From Spirochaetales bacterium (GTDB taxonomy: Bacteria > Spirochaetota > Spirochaetia > DSM-27196 > SKKC01), in NCBI GenBank assembly GCA_007135605.1, contig SLIN01000108.1, forward strand, positions 1 to 33,124: a stretch of 33,124 nucleotides of DNA, written 5' to 3'. Below are positions 8,542-18,372 of the stretch, in pieces. Made by a program: the position numbers and the translations under genes. The first letter of the stretch is position 1, and every line of letters starts with the position of its first letter. Under the pieces are notes generated by a model. The model was not told the origin of the DNA. It saw only the letters and a list, made by a program, of their open reading frames with translations, and did not search any database.

Positions 8542-9678
8542 ATGGGTAACCACGAAGAAATGCAGGAATCACCGACGCTCGAATCGATAGAGGTCGCCGG
8601 CACGCCTCGCGAGATGGGTGAGGCGTTCGGTGAAGCGTATCGAGGCGAAACGCATGAGCTCTACGAGCGCAGGCTGGAAAATGCGATCGAGCAAGCGCGG
8701 CTGAACGGCGGACGCACTTTCGGAGTGGACGACGTGCTTTCGGTGGCCGGTTCGTGCCTATCGGTTACCGAGGAATACGACCCGCTCGGCTTCGCGGAGT
8801 TCCTCGGTATCGCGCGCGGCGCCTCACTCTCCCCCGAACAGCTCTTCGTGACGCAGGGGCTCACCGACTTCCGCGATATTCTCGCGTTTGCGGACGATAT
8901 CTCCGATGGTCCGGTCGTCCACCCGGACGCCGAAGGCTGCTCGTCGTTTCTCGTCGCACCGGATCGTTCCCGGCGCGGCGGTGTGCTCGCCGGCCAGACA
9001 TGGGATCTGTATACCGACAACATGCCGTACGTACGCCTCGTGCATCGAAAACCGAGTAACGCGCCGGAAACCATCAGCCTGACACTGACAGGTTGTCTCT
9101 CACTTATCGGTCTCAACAGCGAAGGTATCGCCGTCGGCAACACGAATCTCTGCACGCGCGACGCGCGAATCGGTGTGCAGTACTTGTCGGTCATACATCG
9201 CGCGCTCAGAAGCAGAAGCGCAGAGGAGGCAGTAGCTTCGATCACCGCAGCACCTCGATCGGCGGCACACTACTACTACGTCGCCGACCGATCGGGAGAC
9301 GCTGTCGGACTCGAGTGCAGCGCGACTCGCCATGAACGATTCGATGTGCCGAGCGGGATACTCGTGCACTGCAACCATTCGCTCGGCGAAACCATCCGCG
9401 AGCTCGAGGTGCCGATCACCGAGGAGTCGACCTACGCGCGGCAGTCGAGACTGACCCAACTGCTGGGCGACCGGGAGCCACCATTGCTCAGCGCCGGTAC
9501 TCTGAAGCGGGCGCTGTCGGACGGACACGGCGGCGATCTCGCCATCTGCCGCTACAGGACCGGCGATTTCGACGTAAGCACAAATGCGGCCGTGGTTATG
9601 TCTCCGCGAGACGGCGCAATTCACGCCTGCCGGGGACAACCGGACCGAGGAGTGTGGCGAACCGAACGGGTAGGGTAG
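8542..9678 (+). CDS. C45-type peptidase / acyl-CoA:6-APA acyltransferase-like NTN hydrolase
   Basis: GCSSFLVAPD...GGVLAGQTWDLYTDN and GLNSEGIAVGNTNL match the AAT/C45 pattern with a candidate Cys nucleophile. ATG 8560 is an alternative start. Confidence 0.8.
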   Translation: MGNHEEMQESPTLESIEVAGTPREMGEAFGEAYRGETHELYERRLENAIEQARLNGGRTFGVDDVLSVAGSCLSVTEEYDPLGFAEFLGIARGASLSPEQLFVTQGLTDFRDILAFADDISDGPVVHPDAEGCSSFLVAPDRSRRGGVLAGQTWDLYTDNMPYVRLVHRKPSNAPETISLTLTGCLSLIGLNSEGIAVGNTNLCTRDARIGVQYLSVIHRALRSRSAEEAVASITAAPRSAAHYYYVADRSGDAVGLECSATRHERFDVPSGILVHCNHSLGETIRELEVPITEESTYARQSRLTQLLGDREPPLLSAGTLKRALSDGHGGDLAICRYRTGDFDVSTNAAVVMSPRDGAIHACRGQPDRGVWRTERVG

Positions 9679-9770
9679 CGCACACGTCTGTCCCCCGGCC
9701 GACGAGTTTGCGTCTACGCATGACTGCGAACGGTACCATTCATTGCGAGGTCGGAGTCCGTTCAGGTCGA

Positions 9771-10922
9771 CTACTGTGCACGATGCAGTACCCGGGACAG
9801 CGCGATCGCGCTCAAACCCATCACCGCAAGCAGCAGCATAGCCGGCCGGAACGATCCGTACTGCTCGAAGAGAAGGCCGGCAACCCATGGTGTAATGCCG
9901 GCAACGCCGAGCGCCGAAAAAACGAGCCCGTACGTCAGTCCGAAACCGCGCTCGCCGAAGTATGTGACCGTAGCGGCGGGAAAGAGGCTGAAGAGCCCTC
10001 CGTACGACGCACCGAGCACCGCGACCGCCACCCCGACAAACAGGGGAGTCTCGGCGACAAACAGTCCCAGCAGCGCGACAAGTATCGTCGAAAATGCGAC
10101 GGTCATCGAATTCTCGCGTCCGACGCGGTCGGAAAGATATCCGGACACGATACGCCCTCCGGCGTTGAACAGGGCGAAAAGCGAGACGATTATGTAGCCG
10201 CGCGTGATGTCTGCATGCACGCGTGCGAGAGTGTCGAGGTGGGAGGCCACCGTAACGCCGGCGGACGTCGTGAGGAAAAACATCACCCAGATAAGATAGA
10301 AGCGCGGGGCGGCGAGTACACGGAGCGACTGTCTCAGACGTACCGGCGTCGACGGAGCGTCAGGCGGAAGTTTTATCAGTTGTGCCAGCGTAAGGACACC
10401 GACGAAAAGGATAATCCCGGAAAGCACGAATGCGTGGGCAACACCGCGTTCAACCCACCGGTCGATCATCGGCGCGAGGATCAGTGCCGACACACCGATG
10501 CCCGTGACCACGATTCCGGCCACAAGGCCTTTGCGTTCGGGACCGAACCACCGCACCGCGGCCGGTGTCACCGATGCGAAACAGCACGCCATCGCAACTC
10601 CGAGCAGCCCGCCCCAGAGAAGAGCGACACCGGTGGGCGTGAGAAAGAGCGCGCAGAGGATGAATGCTGCGCCCCCAAGCACCGCGCCGAGCGACACAAC
10701 CGGCCGTGGTCCGAGCCGATCCTGTAGTCGTCCGGCAGGAATCATTGAGAAGGCGTAACAGAAGAGAAAGATGGTATACGGGGCTGCAGCTTCGGCGTGA
10801 GTCCAACCGAGCTCTTCGACGAGTCCGCGAGCGAATATACTCCACGCATACGTAATGCCGACCAGGACATTCACCGCAAATCCGGCGAAAACCACGGTCC
10901 AGCCGGTTCGATTATCTTGCAT
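9771..10922 (-). CDS. MFS transporter, OFA (oxalate/formate antiporter)-like
   Basis: VGITYAWSIFARGLVEELGWTHAEAAAPYTIFLFCYAFSMIPAGRLQDRLGPRPV is typical of OFA-type N-termini. Confidence 0.85.
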   Translation of the reverse strand: MQDNRTGWTVVFAGFAVNVLVGITYAWSIFARGLVEELGWTHAEAAAPYTIFLFCYAFSMIPAGRLQDRLGPRPVVSLGAVLGGAAFILCALFLTPTGVALLWGGLLGVAMACCFASVTPAAVRWFGPERKGLVAGIVVTGIGVSALILAPMIDRWVERGVAHAFVLSGIILFVGVLTLAQLIKLPPDAPSTPVRLRQSLRVLAAPRFYLIWVMFFLTTSAGVTVASHLDTLARVHADITRGYIIVSLFALFNAGGRIVSGYLSDRVGRENSMTVAFSTILVALLGLFVAETPLFVGVAVAVLGASYGGLFSLFPAATVTYFGERGFGLTYGLVFSALGVAGITPWVAGLLFEQYGSFRPAMLLLAVMGLSAIALSRVLHRAQ

Positions 10923-11003
10923 CTATCGCCGATACTACCGGTGTCCGCCGGAGCCGCCAAGCACACCGCATTCCGGCACGCCGGTTCCAATCGTTCCTGC
11001 CGC

Positions 11004-12944
11004 TCATTCGAGCGAAAAGAGCGAGCGTACGGTGCGGAGGTTTGCCTCGTTTCGGTGGTTCTGGCCGTCTTCGGCGTACAGATCTTGTACACGCTGTTCG
11101 AAGACTTCGAGTACCTTGTGGCGCACGATCTTCATCGTCGAGTTGACCGTGTCGTTATCCTCACTGAACGGCTCCTCGAGCACTTGAAACGTTGAGGGAA
11201 TCCACTGCGACGGGAAACGCCGCGCATACGCCGGGTCGTCACGGAAACGATAGAGCTCGTCACGAACCAGGTCGAGAAACTCGGGAGCGCTCTGCACATT
11301 TCGCTCTTTGATCATGGCGGCCGCTCGCTCCCTGTCGAGAGTTATGAGGGCGCCGGTATACGGGGAGTGGTCGTTGTAGACTACCGCCTGGTCGATGAGA
11401 TCCGAGCTGTTTAAGATCGCCTCTTCGATCTCCTCCGGTGAGTACTTCTCGCCGTCGGGGGCGATGAGCAATGCCTTCTCCCGCCCGACGACAAACAGGA
11501 AACCGTCATCGTCGAGATAGCCGCGATCTCCGGTGAGAAGCATGCCGTCACGAATTGTCTCGAAGGTGGCCGCATCGTTCTTGAAATAGCCGGCCATGAC
11601 GTTTTCGCCGCGGATCGCTATCTCGCCGGTTTCACCGATCTCGCACTCCGTACCGTCCTCCTTGAGAATGTGACACTCCACCGAAGGCGCCACCTTCCCC
11701 GACGAACCGATCTTGTGAGCGAACGGAGTATTGGATGAGATGACTGGTGCGGCCTCCGTGAGTCCGTAGCCCTGATAGATCGGCACACCGATCGCCGCGT
11801 AGAACTCCTGCTGTTTGCGGTCGAGCAGAGCTCCGCCGCCGACGCAGAACTGAATGCTGCTGCCGAAGATCTCGCGAACTTTCCGGAACACGATACGGTC
11901 GGCGAGTTTATACGGTATGTAGCTGCGGAGCCGGATCAGATACGGCGGGCGGCGATAGCCGTCACCGTGGTACCGAATACCACTACGCAGCCCCATTTCG
12001 AACAGCTTCTCGGCGATACCACCCTTCGCACGTATGCCGGCGGGGATCTTCTTCATGAAGCTCGCCGTGAGCGCGGGGACTGTCAGCAGGAAAACCGGAC
12101 TCGTCTCGCGCAGATTTCCCGGGATATTCTTGAGGGCCGCCATGCTGCTTCCGCGCGCGTCGACAAAGTAGATCTCGATCGCTCGCGGGAGTGCCGCGTA
12201 GAGCCCGACGGTATGCGCGAACGAGTGGTCACACGGCAGAATGAGAAGCGTGCGGTACTCGGCGGTCGGTACCTGGAACAATTCCACCGCATCGTGCACG
12301 TTGACGTAGTAGTTGCGGTTTGTGAGCATGATTCCCTTCGGGTTCCCGGTTGTCCCGGAAGTGTAGGAGATCGTGACTACATCGTCTTCGACCGTATTCC
12401 GCTCAATTTCGTCGAGCTCGCTCGTCGCCTCCGGAAGGCTGTCGCGTCCGGCTGCGAGCACTTCTGCGAATGAGAAGAGCCGCTTGCCTCGTTTCAGCTT
12501 GTGCTCCCCGGCAATGCGGGTGAGCGTCTCTTCGTCGTCGTCGAGATAGAGAAGCTTCACGGTGCGCGGCAGTTTATTCAGGCGTGCAAGCAGTTTCTCG
12601 CTCGTATTCGAGGAAAATACAACGAACGCACTCTCCGAATGGGTGATTCGAAACTCGATCTCTTCCGGTTGCAACTTAATCGAAAGGGGAACCGAGATTC
12701 CTCCCGAGAAGAGTGTAGCGAACTCGGCGATCACCCATTCTGTGCGACCTTCCGAAAGAATAGACAGCCGCTGTCCGTTGCCGAACCCCGCCTTGAGCAG
12801 GCCGGCGGCCAGAGTTCGTGCGGTTTCGTGGACCTCCGCGAATGTGCGCGATATCCAGCCGCTTTCACCCTTGCTCCACAGATACGGTCGGTTCCGGTGC
12901 TGTGAAGCAGCCCGGCCAAGCATTCCCAGTACGGTTCGCTGCAT
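11004..12944 (-). CDS. Long-chain fatty acyl-CoA synthetase / AMP-dependent synthetase
   Basis: ISYTSGTTGNPKGIMLTNRNY, YQGYGLTEAAPVIS, LLTGDRGYLDDDGFLFVVGREKALLIAPDGEKYSPEEIE. Confidence 0.93.
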   Translation of the reverse strand: MQRTVLGMLGRAASQHRNRPYLWSKGESGWISRTFAEVHETARTLAAGLLKAGFGNGQRLSILSEGRTEWVIAEFATLFSGGISVPLSIKLQPEEIEFRITHSESAFVVFSSNTSEKLLARLNKLPRTVKLLYLDDDEETLTRIAGEHKLKRGKRLFSFAEVLAAGRDSLPEATSELDEIERNTVEDDVVTISYTSGTTGNPKGIMLTNRNYYVNVHDAVELFQVPTAEYRTLLILPCDHSFAHTVGLYAALPRAIEIYFVDARGSSMAALKNIPGNLRETSPVFLLTVPALTASFMKKIPAGIRAKGGIAEKLFEMGLRSGIRYHGDGYRRPPYLIRLRSYIPYKLADRIVFRKVREIFGSSIQFCVGGGALLDRKQQEFYAAIGVPIYQGYGLTEAAPVISSNTPFAHKIGSSGKVAPSVECHILKEDGTECEIGETGEIAIRGENVMAGYFKNDAATFETIRDGMLLTGDRGYLDDDGFLFVVGREKALLIAPDGEKYSPEEIEEAILNSSDLIDQAVVYNDHSPYTGALITLDRERAAAMIKERNVQSAPEFLDLVRDELYRFRDDPAYARRFPSQWIPSTFQVLEEPFSEDNDTVNSTMKIVRHKVLEVFEQRVQDLYAEDGQNHRNEANLRTVRSLFSLE

Positions 12945-13050
12945 GGAGGAAGTCTATGAGTGGCTCGACACGCGATCAAGATTGCCGATGCGGTCGGCAG
13001 CCGATATTTCTATACGCTGATGTACGTACGCAGGGGCGGCGCCGCCCTAA

Positions 13051-13179
13051 GAGTTTGTCGGACTTCACTTCGGAATTGAGTATCGGACGTATATATCAAC
13101 ATCGGAATGCATACGACTCGGCGATAATATGCGCTATGCCTTTCCGATTTTCAATTCTGCCCATATGTCCGACAAACTC
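13051..13179. mobile_element. Putative MITE-like non-autonomous element
   Basis: Perfect 13-bp terminal inverted repeats GAGTTTGTCGGAC / GTCCGACAAACTC with inner spaced matches (GAATTGA, ATCGGA at the same offsets); flanked by CTAA at 13047-13050 and 13180-13183; no significant ORF inside. Confidence 0.72.
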
Positions 13180-14241
13180 CTAAGGCGGATCGAGCTCTAC
13201 AACGAGCAACTCGTGCTCAGACACACTTCCGACCTCGGAGAGGCGTTCGACTGAATCGTCGAAAGCGGCGATAGCGTTGCTTCGCCCCTCCCAGAAGAGT
13301 CCGTGAAACTCGCCGGTCAGAAAGACGGTCAGGCCGTACGGCACCGCGCTTTCCATGAGGCGTTCGGGGACCGCATCCTGCAGGCGTTCGCGCACCGATG
13401 CATCGTACTCGGTGCCTTCTCCGCGCAGGTCGATCCACAGATCGCGCCCGTCGTGCACCTCGTCCCAGACGGGGAAATAGGTATCTCGGCAGATAGTCAG
13501 CCCGACAGACCATCCTTCCACCTCGAACCCGTGTGCGTCGTCCGGATCGCCGGCACTCAGTTCGACGATCTCACGCTCGAACGCGGTCAGGAAAACCTTA
13601 TCCTGCTCGTACAGACGTTCGCCGTCAGGACCGTATACGACCGCCCGATTCTTCAGCTGCGGGTTGCCATCCGGTGCATCGTCGAGCGCAAAGTACGTCC
13701 CGGCGACGACGGTGACCGCGTGTTCGGCTGCGGCGCGACCGTAGGCCCGGTCCATCCAGCGGGAGACTTCTTTGGAGGATGATGTGAACAGCTCGTGCAG
13801 CGACTCGAACTCGGTATGCGCGCGGAGCGTGCCGAACAGCCGTGCGACGGCGCTTCGGCGCGAACCGGTCGCACCGTCAATCGACTGCTCGATCTGCTCG
13901 CCTGACAGACCGAGCTCGGAGAGCGCGGTAACAAACCGGTCATGCTCGATGAGTGCCGCGAAAACGTTCTGGTACTCGGGAAAGACGACGAGATCGCTTC
14001 CGAGCTCAGCGGCACGTCCGATCGCGGCATGTATCGCACTCTCGAACCGCTCGCGGTCGGCTACGATGTCTTCGGCGACTTCGAATTGCACCGCTCCTAC
14101 GATCAGCGGCGGATCGACTGCTGCGCTGTCGGTGCGTTCCCGGGCCGTCGCCGGTCCGGCCGACAGTGTCGCGCTCGCGACCGTCAGCATCAGAATGGCG
14201 ATGGAGCGTCGGATCGGCGTGTGGCGGGCGGAGACGTTCAT
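13180..14241 (-). CDS. Exported carbon-nitrogen hydrolase (nitrilase superfamily)
   Basis: Glu-Lys-Cys triad contexts LVVFPEYQNVF, YEQDKVFLTAFE, VGLTICRDTYFP; signal-peptide-like MNVSARHTPIRRSIAILMLTVASATLSAGPATARE from ATG 14241. Confidence 0.82.
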   Translation of the reverse strand: MNVSARHTPIRRSIAILMLTVASATLSAGPATARERTDSAAVDPPLIVGAVQFEVAEDIVADRERFESAIHAAIGRAAELGSDLVVFPEYQNVFAALIEHDRFVTALSELGLSGEQIEQSIDGATGSRRSAVARLFGTLRAHTEFESLHELFTSSSKEVSRWMDRAYGRAAAEHAVTVVAGTYFALDDAPDGNPQLKNRAVVYGPDGERLYEQDKVFLTAFEREIVELSAGDPDDAHGFEVEGWSVGLTICRDTYFPVWDEVHDGRDLWIDLRGEGTEYDASVRERLQDAVPERLMESAVPYGLTVFLTGEFHGLFWEGRSNAIAAFDDSVERLSEVGSVSEHELLVVELDPP

Positions 14242-14404
14242 TCGTCGTCCGATACCCCGACTGCGTACACATACCATCGGTGTGTTCAGTGTAGCAGGGA
14301 GAGGCCGATGCGTCAGCGGCCAAATTGGGCTTGACAGCGAGCGCGCACATGTCACGATCGTGCATACGCGCAGAGACCGCCTCCGGTTCGGAAGCGGTCC
14401 GGCC

Positions 14405-14416
14405 GCGTACGTACGC
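14405..14416. promoter_or_regulatory. 12-bp perfect palindrome GCGTACGTACGC upstream of the M18 aminopeptidase
   Basis: Read directly; 31 bp upstream of the GTG start. Confidence 0.4.
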
Positions 14417-14446
14417 AGCTGCGATTTCATAAGGAGAAAGAACTAC

Positions 14447-15778
14447 GTGAATCTTGACAGCTTCCAACGGGAACCGTTTCTCGAGTTCCTCACTGCATCG
14501 TCGACTGCGGCTATCGCCGCCGATCGAATCGAATCGATACTGCACGAGCACGATTATGAGCGGTATAGCGAGTCGGAGACGTGGAGCGTCGCGGCAGGCG
14601 ACCGCTTCTACGTCCGGCGCGGAGCCGGTGGCCTGCTTGCGGTGAAAGTGGGCAACGAGTCGCTCGAGACCGCGGGTTTTCGCATCGCTGCCGCACACAG
14701 CGATAGTCCGGCATTGAAGCTCAAGCCGCGCGGTGCGAAGCGGAAGAACGGCGGCCTGTACGTCCCGGTAGAAGTATACGGTGCACCGATACTCTCGACG
14801 TGGATCGACCGCGAGCTGATACTCACCGGCCGCGCGGTGCTGCGGGCCGGCGATTCACTGATCGTCCGCTCTTTTCGCGCCGGCCAACCGGCGGCCGTGA
14901 TTCCGAATCTCGCCATCCACCTGAACCGGGAAGTGAACAAGGGGTTCGAGTACAACGCACAGGACCACTTGCAGGTTCGGCTCGCCGTCGACCGGGACCG
15001 GAGTAACGCTCCGGGACACGATGAATCCAACCACGAAGCCGGCGAAGAGATCATCACCTCCGAGATCGCCTCGATTCTCTCATGCGATCCGGAGGAGATC
15101 GTCTCGATGGATGTATTCGTTGCCGATCCGTCACCGGCGGTGATGCTTGCCGACGGCCGTACATTTGTGTCCGGACGGATCGATAACCTCGCCGGCTGCT
15201 ACTCTTGTCTTGCCGGATTTCTCGCCTCTCAGGATGACCGGACCACGAAGGTGTTGGCCGTTTTCGATAATGAGGAGATCGGCAGCCGAACCTCCGGTGG
15301 GGCGGATTCCGGCTTCCTGGAGTCGGTACTGCTTCGTCTCGCCGGTGGCGATCCTGCTTCGCTTGCGCGATCCTGCGCGAGAAGCCTCCTCGTATCCAAT
15401 GACGGAGCTCATGCACTTCACGACGGGTTCGCATCGAAGTATGACGAGTCGTACGCTCCGGTATTGGGCGGCGGGGTCGCGATCAAGACCAATGCCTCCT
15501 ATCGGTATGCGAGTACGAGTGAGGCGGTGGCCGTCACTCGAGAGGTCGCCCGAAGGGCCGATATCCCGTTACAATACCTGGCCGGCCGCAGTGATATGCG
15601 CACGGGGTCGACCATCGGACCGTTCGCCTGGTCGCGTACCGGAATGGCATCGGTCGACCTCGGGGTTCCAATGCTGGCTATGCACAGCATACGGGAGACG
15701 GCGCGAATCGATGATGTGGAGCGGCTCTCGACACTGATCGGCGAGCTGCTCGCGGTGAATGAGGAGATGTTGCCGTGA
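14447..15778 (+). CDS. M18 family aminopeptidase
   Basis: AAHSDSPALKLKP, DNEEIGSRTSGGADSGFLE, SNDGAHALHDGFASKYDESYAPVLGGGVAIK; GTG start with AAGGAG at 14431. Confidence 0.92.
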   Translation: MNLDSFQREPFLEFLTASSTAAIAADRIESILHEHDYERYSESETWSVAAGDRFYVRRGAGGLLAVKVGNESLETAGFRIAAAHSDSPALKLKPRGAKRKNGGLYVPVEVYGAPILSTWIDRELILTGRAVLRAGDSLIVRSFRAGQPAAVIPNLAIHLNREVNKGFEYNAQDHLQVRLAVDRDRSNAPGHDESNHEAGEEIITSEIASILSCDPEEIVSMDVFVADPSPAVMLADGRTFVSGRIDNLAGCYSCLAGFLASQDDRTTKVLAVFDNEEIGSRTSGGADSGFLESVLLRLAGGDPASLARSCARSLLVSNDGAHALHDGFASKYDESYAPVLGGGVAIKTNASYRYASTSEAVAVTREVARRADIPLQYLAGRSDMRTGSTIGPFAWSRTGMASVDLGVPMLAMHSIRETARIDDVERLSTLIGELLAVNEEMLP

Positions 15779-16791
15779 AAGCAATGGTAGTAGACGAGTG
15801 GGGTGGGCCGGAGAACTTCGTATTGCGCGATATCGAGAAGCCGTCGGTTACGCCGGGTCACGTACTGATCCGAGTCGAGGCGACCAGCGTCAACCCGATC
15901 GATTACAAGATACGCTCGGGAGGCATTGGATTCGCGCCGAAGCTTCCCGCCGTACTTCATGGCGACGTTGCGGGAATCGTCGCCGAGCTCGGCGAGGGCG
16001 TTGAACACCTCGAGGAGGGAGATGCAGTCTATGCGTGTGCCGGTGGATTTCGCGGACTCGGCGGTGCTCTCGCCGAGTATATGCTTGCCGACGCACGCGT
16101 CGTAGCACGAAAGCCGGAGGATCTCACGTTCAGGGAAGCGGCGGCCGTGCCGTTGGTGAGTATTACGGCATGGCTGGCTGTCGTGGACCGGGCGCGGGTT
16201 TCGCCTCACGACTACGTATTGGTTCACGCCGCGGCAGGCGGTGTCGGGCATGTCGGAATCCAGATCGCGAAGAACATCGGCGCGCACGTGGCGACCACGG
16301 TGTCCACGGCGGAAAAGGCGGACGTGGCCTCCGACCTCGGAGCGGATGAGGTCATCTACTATCGCGATGAGTCGGTCGACGACTACGTACAACGCCTTAC
16401 CGGGGGACGAGGGTTCGACGTAGTATTCGACACCGTCGGAGGCGAGACGCTGCAGAAAAGTCTCCAGGCCGTGCGTATCGGCGGGCGGGTCGCGGGAATC
16501 GCGATGCGCACCACCGGCAGTTTCGCTCCGGTACACGAGAAGGACTTAACGCTCAGCGGCGTGTTCATGGCTGCACCACTACTTACCGGTAATGCCCCCG
16601 CCATGGTGCACCAACGACACATTCTCGAGACGCTCGGCCGCTGGAATCTTGCCAATCGATTCCGCCCGGTTGTCGACCACAGACATTTCGCGCTCGAGGA
16701 CGTGGGGCAGGCACATACCGCACTCGAGTCCGGCGGCGTACTCGGTAAGGCGGTAATCGAGATCGGTGACCACGCTGGAGAGCGGAGCTAG
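15775..16791 (+). CDS. NADP-dependent MDR oxidoreductase, quinone oxidoreductase-like
   Basis: MKAMVVDEWGGPENFVLRDIEKPSVTPGHVLIRVEATSVNPIDYKIR, VHAAAGGVGHVGIQIAK; GTG start overlaps the M18 stop (GTGA). Confidence 0.92.
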   Translation: MKAMVVDEWGGPENFVLRDIEKPSVTPGHVLIRVEATSVNPIDYKIRSGGIGFAPKLPAVLHGDVAGIVAELGEGVEHLEEGDAVYACAGGFRGLGGALAEYMLADARVVARKPEDLTFREAAAVPLVSITAWLAVVDRARVSPHDYVLVHAAAGGVGHVGIQIAKNIGAHVATTVSTAEKADVASDLGADEVIYYRDESVDDYVQRLTGGRGFDVVFDTVGGETLQKSLQAVRIGGRVAGIAMRTTGSFAPVHEKDLTLSGVFMAAPLLTGNAPAMVHQRHILETLGRWNLANRFRPVVDHRHFALEDVGQAHTALESGGVLGKAVIEIGDHAGERS

Positions 16792-16796
16792 GTCCG

Positions 16797-17162
16797 GTGC
16801 CTGAGTACGGAAGCGTTCCCGAACGTGTGGGGGAGGTGTCTCCGGATCTCTTCTCTGCGCTCGACCTGCGTGTCGGCACCGTCGTAGAGGTAGAAGATTT
16901 TCCCGAGGCGCGCAAACCTGCATACCGGCTCCGCATCGACTTCGGACCGCTCGGGATAATGAACAGCAGTGCACAGCTTACCGAACGGTACGCGACCGAC
17001 GACCTGTTCGGCCGACAGGTTGTTGCCGTTGTAAATATCGGCGAGCGACGGATCGCGGGGTTCACCAGTGAATGCCTCGTTCTCGGTGTCGATGACGAAT
17101 ACGGGCGTGTTGTGTGCCTCCGACCCGATGCTCCCGTCGCGAACGGCCGGCGTGTGTACTGA
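16797..17162 (+). CDS. csaA: CsaA-like tRNA-binding-domain protein
   Basis: LDLRVGTVVEVEDFPEARKPAYRLRIDFGPLGIMNSSAQLT...FGRQVVAVVNIGERRIAGFTSECLVLGV; GTG start. Confidence 0.85.
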   Translation: MPEYGSVPERVGEVSPDLFSALDLRVGTVVEVEDFPEARKPAYRLRIDFGPLGIMNSSAQLTERYATDDLFGRQVVAVVNIGERRIAGFTSECLVLGVDDEYGRVVCLRPDAPVANGRRVY

Positions 17163-17163
17163 T

Positions 17164-18372
17164 ATGGCTCCGGGCCTCGATGACTGGTTCTACAAGTTTG
17201 AGCGGTTCGGCTGGCGCGAAAAGACGTACGAGCTCGGTCTCAGCCACGCTCTGTTCAGCAGTGACCATATCGACGACGGATCGAAAGCACTGCTCGATGT
17301 TCTCGATGCGCGGATGGGCTCCGGGTCGGATGCACCTCGCGTCAACCGGGTCTACGACATCGGCTGCGGCAACGGCGTGCTCGGGATTTGTGCCGCCGAT
17401 GGGCTTTCCGCCGCAGAGTTGATTCTCGAAGACCGCGATGCGCTTGCGGTAGCCCTCGCTGTTCGGAACGCCGAGCGAAATGCGCTGGAGTGCCGGACTG
17501 TGCCGTATGCTCGACCCACCGGGGTCGGAGCCGGAGTCGAAAGCGACCTGATCGTGTGCAACGTACCGGCAAAAGCCGGCGAACCGGTTCACCACCTCAT
17601 GACCGACTACGCACTCGCCAATCTTGCCCCGTCCGGCCTCTTGCTGCTCGTCGTGGTCAATCCGATTGCCGATACCCTTGCGATGCATCTCGAGCGACGC
17701 TCCGCCCGTATCGAGCGGCACACCTTCCGGGGGCACACGGTCTTTGCGGTCGAGCATACTCCCGATACCGGGACAGTACAGCCTCCGTTGCCGGAGGCGT
17801 ATCGGAGGGACAAACGGGTTGCACTCGAGTTTCGCGGCATCGCGTATGAGTTCACCCCCACGCTGGGGCTCGGGGAGTTCGACGGACCTTCGTACACGAC
17901 CGCGATGCTCGCTCGTCTCGCCGTCGAGTGTTGCGCCGATCGTCCGGCCGTTCTCTACGAACCGGGAGCAGGACACCTGCCGCTGATCCTCTCCCGGCTT
18001 CCGGACGGCAGCCGGCCGAGGTCGTTTCTCTTCGCCTGTCGGAACACCCTTGCCCGTCATGCACTCGAAACGCTCAACACCTTTTCCGGAGTTCCGTACG
18101 AGTCGGAGGTTTGTGAGCGCCCTCACGAGCTTCGACGCTTCGTCGCTCCGGGCGCGCTCGTCGTTCTGCCTGTGGTGCCGGAGCCGCATACACCCTTTAT
18201 CGAGGAGCTTCTCGGCGTTGCGGAAGCGGTTTCACAGGCCGGCGGCGTACTCGCGCTCGCCGGTGCCTCGGCAACCGTTACCCGACTCGAGAAGCGTCGA
18301 TTGCCGTTGCGGATCGTACGTCGGGCAAAAAGCCGCGGCGTTCGCGGGTTGATTCTTACACTGCGCGATTGA
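17164..18372 (+). CDS. Class I SAM-dependent methyltransferase, RsmC/RlmG-like
   Basis: VNRVYDIGCGNGVLGICAADG motif I; NVPAKAGEPVHHLMTDYALANLAPSGLLLLV resembles the NPP(Y/F)H region context; ATG 17164 immediately after the csaA stop. Confidence 0.7.
   Translation: MAPGLDDWFYKFERFGWREKTYELGLSHALFSSDHIDDGSKALLDVLDARMGSGSDAPRVNRVYDIGCGNGVLGICAADGLSAAELILEDRDALAVALAVRNAERNALECRTVPYARPTGVGAGVESDLIVCNVPAKAGEPVHHLMTDYALANLAPSGLLLLVVVNPIADTLAMHLERRSARIERHTFRGHTVFAVEHTPDTGTVQPPLPEAYRRDKRVALEFRGIAYEFTPTLGLGEFDGPSYTTAMLARLAVECCADRPAVLYEPGAGHLPLILSRLPDGSRPRSFLFACRNTLARHALETLNTFSGVPYESEVCERPHELRRFVAPGALVVLPVVPEPHTPFIEELLGVAEAVSQAGGVLALAGASATVTRLEKRRLPLRIVRRAKSRGVRGLILTLRD

Follow-up and report, generated by a model that had tools for sequence, protein, structure and literature searches.

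The window analysed here was a 33,124-nt stretch of a Spirochaetales bacterium (contig SLIN01000108.1), whose genome (G000) comprised 3.57 Mb in 373 contigs. On reading of their translations, the ORFs at 9000–17500 looked like ordinary cellular genes. A 129-bp element lay at the end of one of them, a nitrilase/amidohydrolase-like gene (Table 1). The genomes compared included G001 and G002, congeneric Spirochaetales MAGs, and G036, a MAG of the same order but a different family.

Table 1. Features of the element and the adjoining gene (positions in the window).
Feature	Position	Strand	Basis
Left target-site duplication copy, CTAA	13047..13050	+	Sequence; G002 empty site holds a single CTAC here
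Non-autonomous DNA transposon (MITE), 129 bp, T subfamily	13051..13179	+	Repeated copies; absent at orthologous loci of G002 and G001
Left terminal inverted repeat, 13 bp, GAGTTTGTCGGAC	13051..13063	+	Sequence
Left subterminal arm, TTCACTTCG-GAATTGA-GT-ATCGGA	13064..13087	+	Imperfect inverted repeat with right arm; low divergence among copies
Variable interior	13088..13142	+	About 16% divergence among T copies vs 2–3% at ends
Right subterminal arm	13143..13166	-	Pairing with left arm; divergence among copies
Right terminal inverted repeat, 13 bp, forward-strand GTCCGACAAACTC	13167..13179	-	Sequence
Right target-site duplication copy, CTAA	13180..13183	+	Reverse complement TTAG contains the TAG stop of the right-hand gene
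Nitrilase/amidohydrolase-like gene, 416-aa ORF	13180..14430	-	Function from reading of the translation only

Structure of the element and its position at a stop codon

As the first-pass annotation had described, a 129-bp sequence was bounded by perfect 13-bp terminal inverted repeats with identical CTAA tetranucleotides outside them, and the matching inner arms that it had pointed out (GAATTGA and ATCGGA) ran on as an imperfect inverted repeat, with arms of 46 nt each, 76% complementary and 55 nt apart. The window contained just two exact occurrences of the 12-mer AGTTTGTCGGAC, one at each end of the element. G+C content was 44% in the element vs 60% in the window. The element (<300 bp) was non-coding, all frames inside it being far below transposase size.

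The nitrilase-like gene ended in ...LDPP-TAG; this stop codon lies within the duplicated tetranucleotide. The gene's counterpart in a congener ended in ...CTCGACCCGCCG TAG, corresponding to the ...LDPP stop in the window. The window copy landed on this stop codon, with the duplicated TAG preserving the stop; the protein end was unchanged by insertion there because the duplication repeats TAG.

Copies, distribution and subfamilies

About 40 places in G000 matched the element by BLAST, sharing the same termini as the first-pass annotation had predicted and contradicting a sequence that is single-copy genome-wide. A scan of the whole genome for the terminal 12-mer (at most 1 mismatch) gave 54 forward and 63 reverse matches (117 in all), against 1 forward and 3 reverse (4) for a reversed-control 12-mer; the copy number is far beyond chance. 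Further matches were found in G001 (16), G002 (22) and G036 (2), with none in the other 37 relatives examined. The arm pattern, sought in 84,980 species genomes, turned up at 31 loci, each in a Spirochaetales or Spirochaetaceae MAG, and had no match among the viral contigs scanned; a search of a plasmid collection for the element also gave no match. Among 46 genomes of the order, a pattern of TAR plus terminal inverted repeat was limited to the four MITE-bearing ones. The isolate names of the MITE-bearing MAGs point to soda-lake sediments; one paper containing the name B1Sed10 is reportedly a soda-lake sediment metagenome study (PMC6146748).

The two copies in G036 may reflect horizontal transfer or mis-binned contigs; this MAG and one congener MAG share a sample name. 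On one contig from that other family (G036:C132; L109, L163), an element copy and an IS1380-like transposase gene occurred together.

Exactly 129 bp was the length of 51 of the 60 near-full copies. Two subfamilies were distinguished, T (ends GAGTTTG...CAAACTC) and C (ends GAGCTTG...CAAGCTC), with arms common to both and strongly different interiors; between them, paired changes were present in the arms at positions 4/126 and 34/96. Within the T subfamily, divergence was 16% in the interior and 2–3% at the ends, the latter figure being biased low by the choice of copies by their ends. The exact length was maintained despite strongly different interiors, with changes matched at both ends. An unusual length constraint, in which a transposase complex or hairpin intermediate would need a fixed end-to-end distance and the enzyme would perhaps belong to an undescribed group, is a rather improbable reading, and a general question would depend on this MITE family only if the length proves mechanistic.

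Short forms of 43–44 and 65 bp, with ends kept, look like internal deletions. Such hairpin-forming forms (43–65 bp, same ends) would also suit a repeat of the REP/REPIN type mobilised by a RAYT (Y1) enzyme, but a single arm is not itself palindromic, and a 4-bp duplication at a YTAR target, seen against empty sites (below), speaks against such a repeat, which is highly improbable. At L082 (G000:C40) and L098 (G000:C353), two ends were fused into a solitary near-palindrome of 19 bp (GAGTTTGTCCGACAAACTC), perhaps an extreme internal deletion. A second MITE-like family of ~166 bp, with 21-bp ends TGTCTCGAAGATTATGGATGG, was nested within some first-family copies (L090 and L111; G000:C231:1753-1918 and G002:C236:5526-5690); its ends matched 16 times in G000, 8 in G001 and 9 in G002, with none in G036 or the window.

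Target-site duplication and element-free sites

The flank consensus of 68 copies was YTAR. A YTAR stood at the junctions 13 and 20 times vs 0–1 at control offsets, and the 4-bp direct repeats around the copies varied, as the first-pass annotation had expected. Direct agreement between left and right flank 4-mers was 138 vs 123.6 expected from shuffled pairing (P 0.014), and exactly equal 4-mers numbered 7 vs 2.5 expected (P 0.010). Among lengths 2 to 9, only 9 besides 4 gave P below 0.05 (0.028), these P values being uncorrected for the eight lengths tried; inverted agreement was never significant at any tested length. Direct agreement was thus best at length 4, which together with the YTAR-like flanks indicated that the duplication was real and of 4 bp. 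A candidate reading of CTAA as a mere extension of the inverted repeat was ruled out by the flank statistics and the empty sites. Conservation was higher at the two flank bases adjoining the element than at the outer pair, and these inner bases may make a small contribution to the element ends.

After removal of orthologues (junctions of 65 copies), two pairs of flank positions were correlated: left -4 and right +1 (Fisher P 0.016), and left -1 and right +4 (P 0.020). This correlation bears on a MITE moved by a non-IS5-like enzyme, such as an IS630/Tc1-type one duplicating only TA, with G/C as terminal bases of the element. TA is the target core, G/C is common beside the element, and an IS5-type transposase with these ends was not found in the genomes searched, all of which would suit such an enzyme; a 2-bp TA duplication, however, would not give a direct correlation of positions 1 and 4 between sides, which argues for a 4-bp duplication, and the CTAA/CTAA of the window and the TTAG/TTAG of other copies deviate together. 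An enzyme that is not IS5-like is possible but rather unlikely.

T to C changes in the duplicated YTAR were commoner at the T reading [C/T]TAGG towards the element (46 vs 25, P 0.017; junctions of 65 copies), which matches what a Vsr-type repair bias would give.

The first-pass annotation had also asked whether relatives carry an empty site, and element-free orthologous loci were found in congeners for the window copy and five others. The window orthologue in G002 read ...GCACCGTC-CTAC-GGCGGGTCGAG..., with 87% identity aligned across the junction and one CTA(C) (CCGTC-CTAC-GGCGG) where the window has CTAA...CTAA; the locus in G001 was also without the element. A joined-flank search for ten further copies yielded element-free sites for L002, L004, L011, L017 and L018, the count leaving out L020 in G002 for its poor junction alignment. 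A single 4-mer was clear at L002 (CTAA), L011 (ATAG) and L018 (GTAA), and the alignments for L004 and L017 were less clean; at L017, G002 was occupied and G001 empty. Relative to the empty sites, insertion of the 129 bp is precise.

Other insertions, judged by eye from their flanks, were apparently common to species (L012/L067, L015/L142 and L080/L133), and the copies have diverged from each other. Because some insertions look shared between species, the family appears old and active more than once.

The empty sites also bear on a reading of the copies as structured RNAs or terminator hairpins conserved for a host function. The predicted fold was strong (-50 kcal/mol, z -6.3), and the subfamilies differ by the paired arm changes given above. 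In addition, 24 of 63 copies had a junction at the end of an open frame of 120 codons or more, vs 20–25% of control YTAR sites, an enrichment that is suggestive, with open frames counted and genes putative. A perfect inverted repeat necessarily folds, however, and changes at paired bases of the T set comprised 139 broken singly vs 17 compensated. An Rfam search was without match, and the insertion is polymorphic between congeners, its absence at orthologous loci opposing a conserved role. The ancestral RNA or terminator with no empty site that the first-pass annotation had set against a transposon is at variance with the empty sites found, and a host-serving RNA is most improbable.

Probable mobilisation and comparison with known systems

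The element is almost certainly a non-autonomous DNA transposon (MITE), presumably mobilised in trans, and inserting at YTAR-like sites with a 4-bp duplication. A DDE transposase supplied in trans would recognise the 13-bp ends, probably together with the neighbouring arms, and would insert the element at YTAR-like tetranucleotides, chiefly CTAG, CTAA or TTAG, with duplication of the 4-bp target. From the YTAR duplication we infer that this enzyme is probably IS5-like. The first-pass annotation had connected a YTAR-like duplication with IS4/IS701-related elements; the duplication was confirmed, but the suggested family would change, YTAR duplications being documented for IS5 (PMC5493358, PMC10359306), which uses mostly CTAG (PMC5493358).

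No IS4-, IS5- or IS701-type transposase with the ends of the element (GAGTTTGTCGGAC) was found in the genomes searched, MAG assemblies that were fragmented and 64–91% complete. Searches with PF01609, PF05598, PF13546 and PF13586 in G000, G001, G002 and G036 gave no transposase with matching ends, PF13546 (IS701-type transposase) having no match in these four incomplete genomes, and no autonomous element was found by end pattern among the 46 genomes of the order. None of the PF01609 elements checked in G036 and G003 carried the MITE ends; one of them, on a G036 contig that also has a MITE copy, resembles IS1380 in sequence. In G001 and G036, DUF772 elements (including L170 and L171) had ends of a different type, GGGCTTGCTGAA. 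ORFs adjoining solitary ends encoded ion channel, ATP synthase, hydrogenase, sulfatase and ABC proteins, with no transposase among them.

In design the element is closest to MITEPsy1 of Pseudomonas syringae, which is likewise non-coding, ~100 bp long, with terminal inverted repeats of similar length, and inserts at CTAG or YTAA with a 4-bp duplication (PMC3189936), as the 129-bp MITE does at YTAR. MITEPsy1 has been attributed to the IS5-type element ISPsy2, and its active transposition demonstrated (PMC3189936); its parent IS is thus known and its movement shown, neither of which holds for the spirochaete MITE. The ends of the two (GGAAGGTCTGAAAAAGCC in MITEPsy1) have no sequence relation. IS5 shares with the spirochaete MITE the 4-bp YTAR duplication, CTAG being commonest, followed by CTAA and TTAG (PMC5493358, PMC10359306), but encodes its own transposase, whereas the MITE has none. 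None of the IS elements found in these genomes shares the ends of the MITE.

The MITE family is real, a new family of a kind of element already known. It adds to uncultured soda-lake spirochaetes a MITE family with clean empty sites and clear YTAR duplications, and gives an example of a harmless insertion on a stop codon, where the duplication restores the stop. The family is of use in annotation, as these repeats break the assemblies, and its copies provide useful evolutionary markers for the three species.
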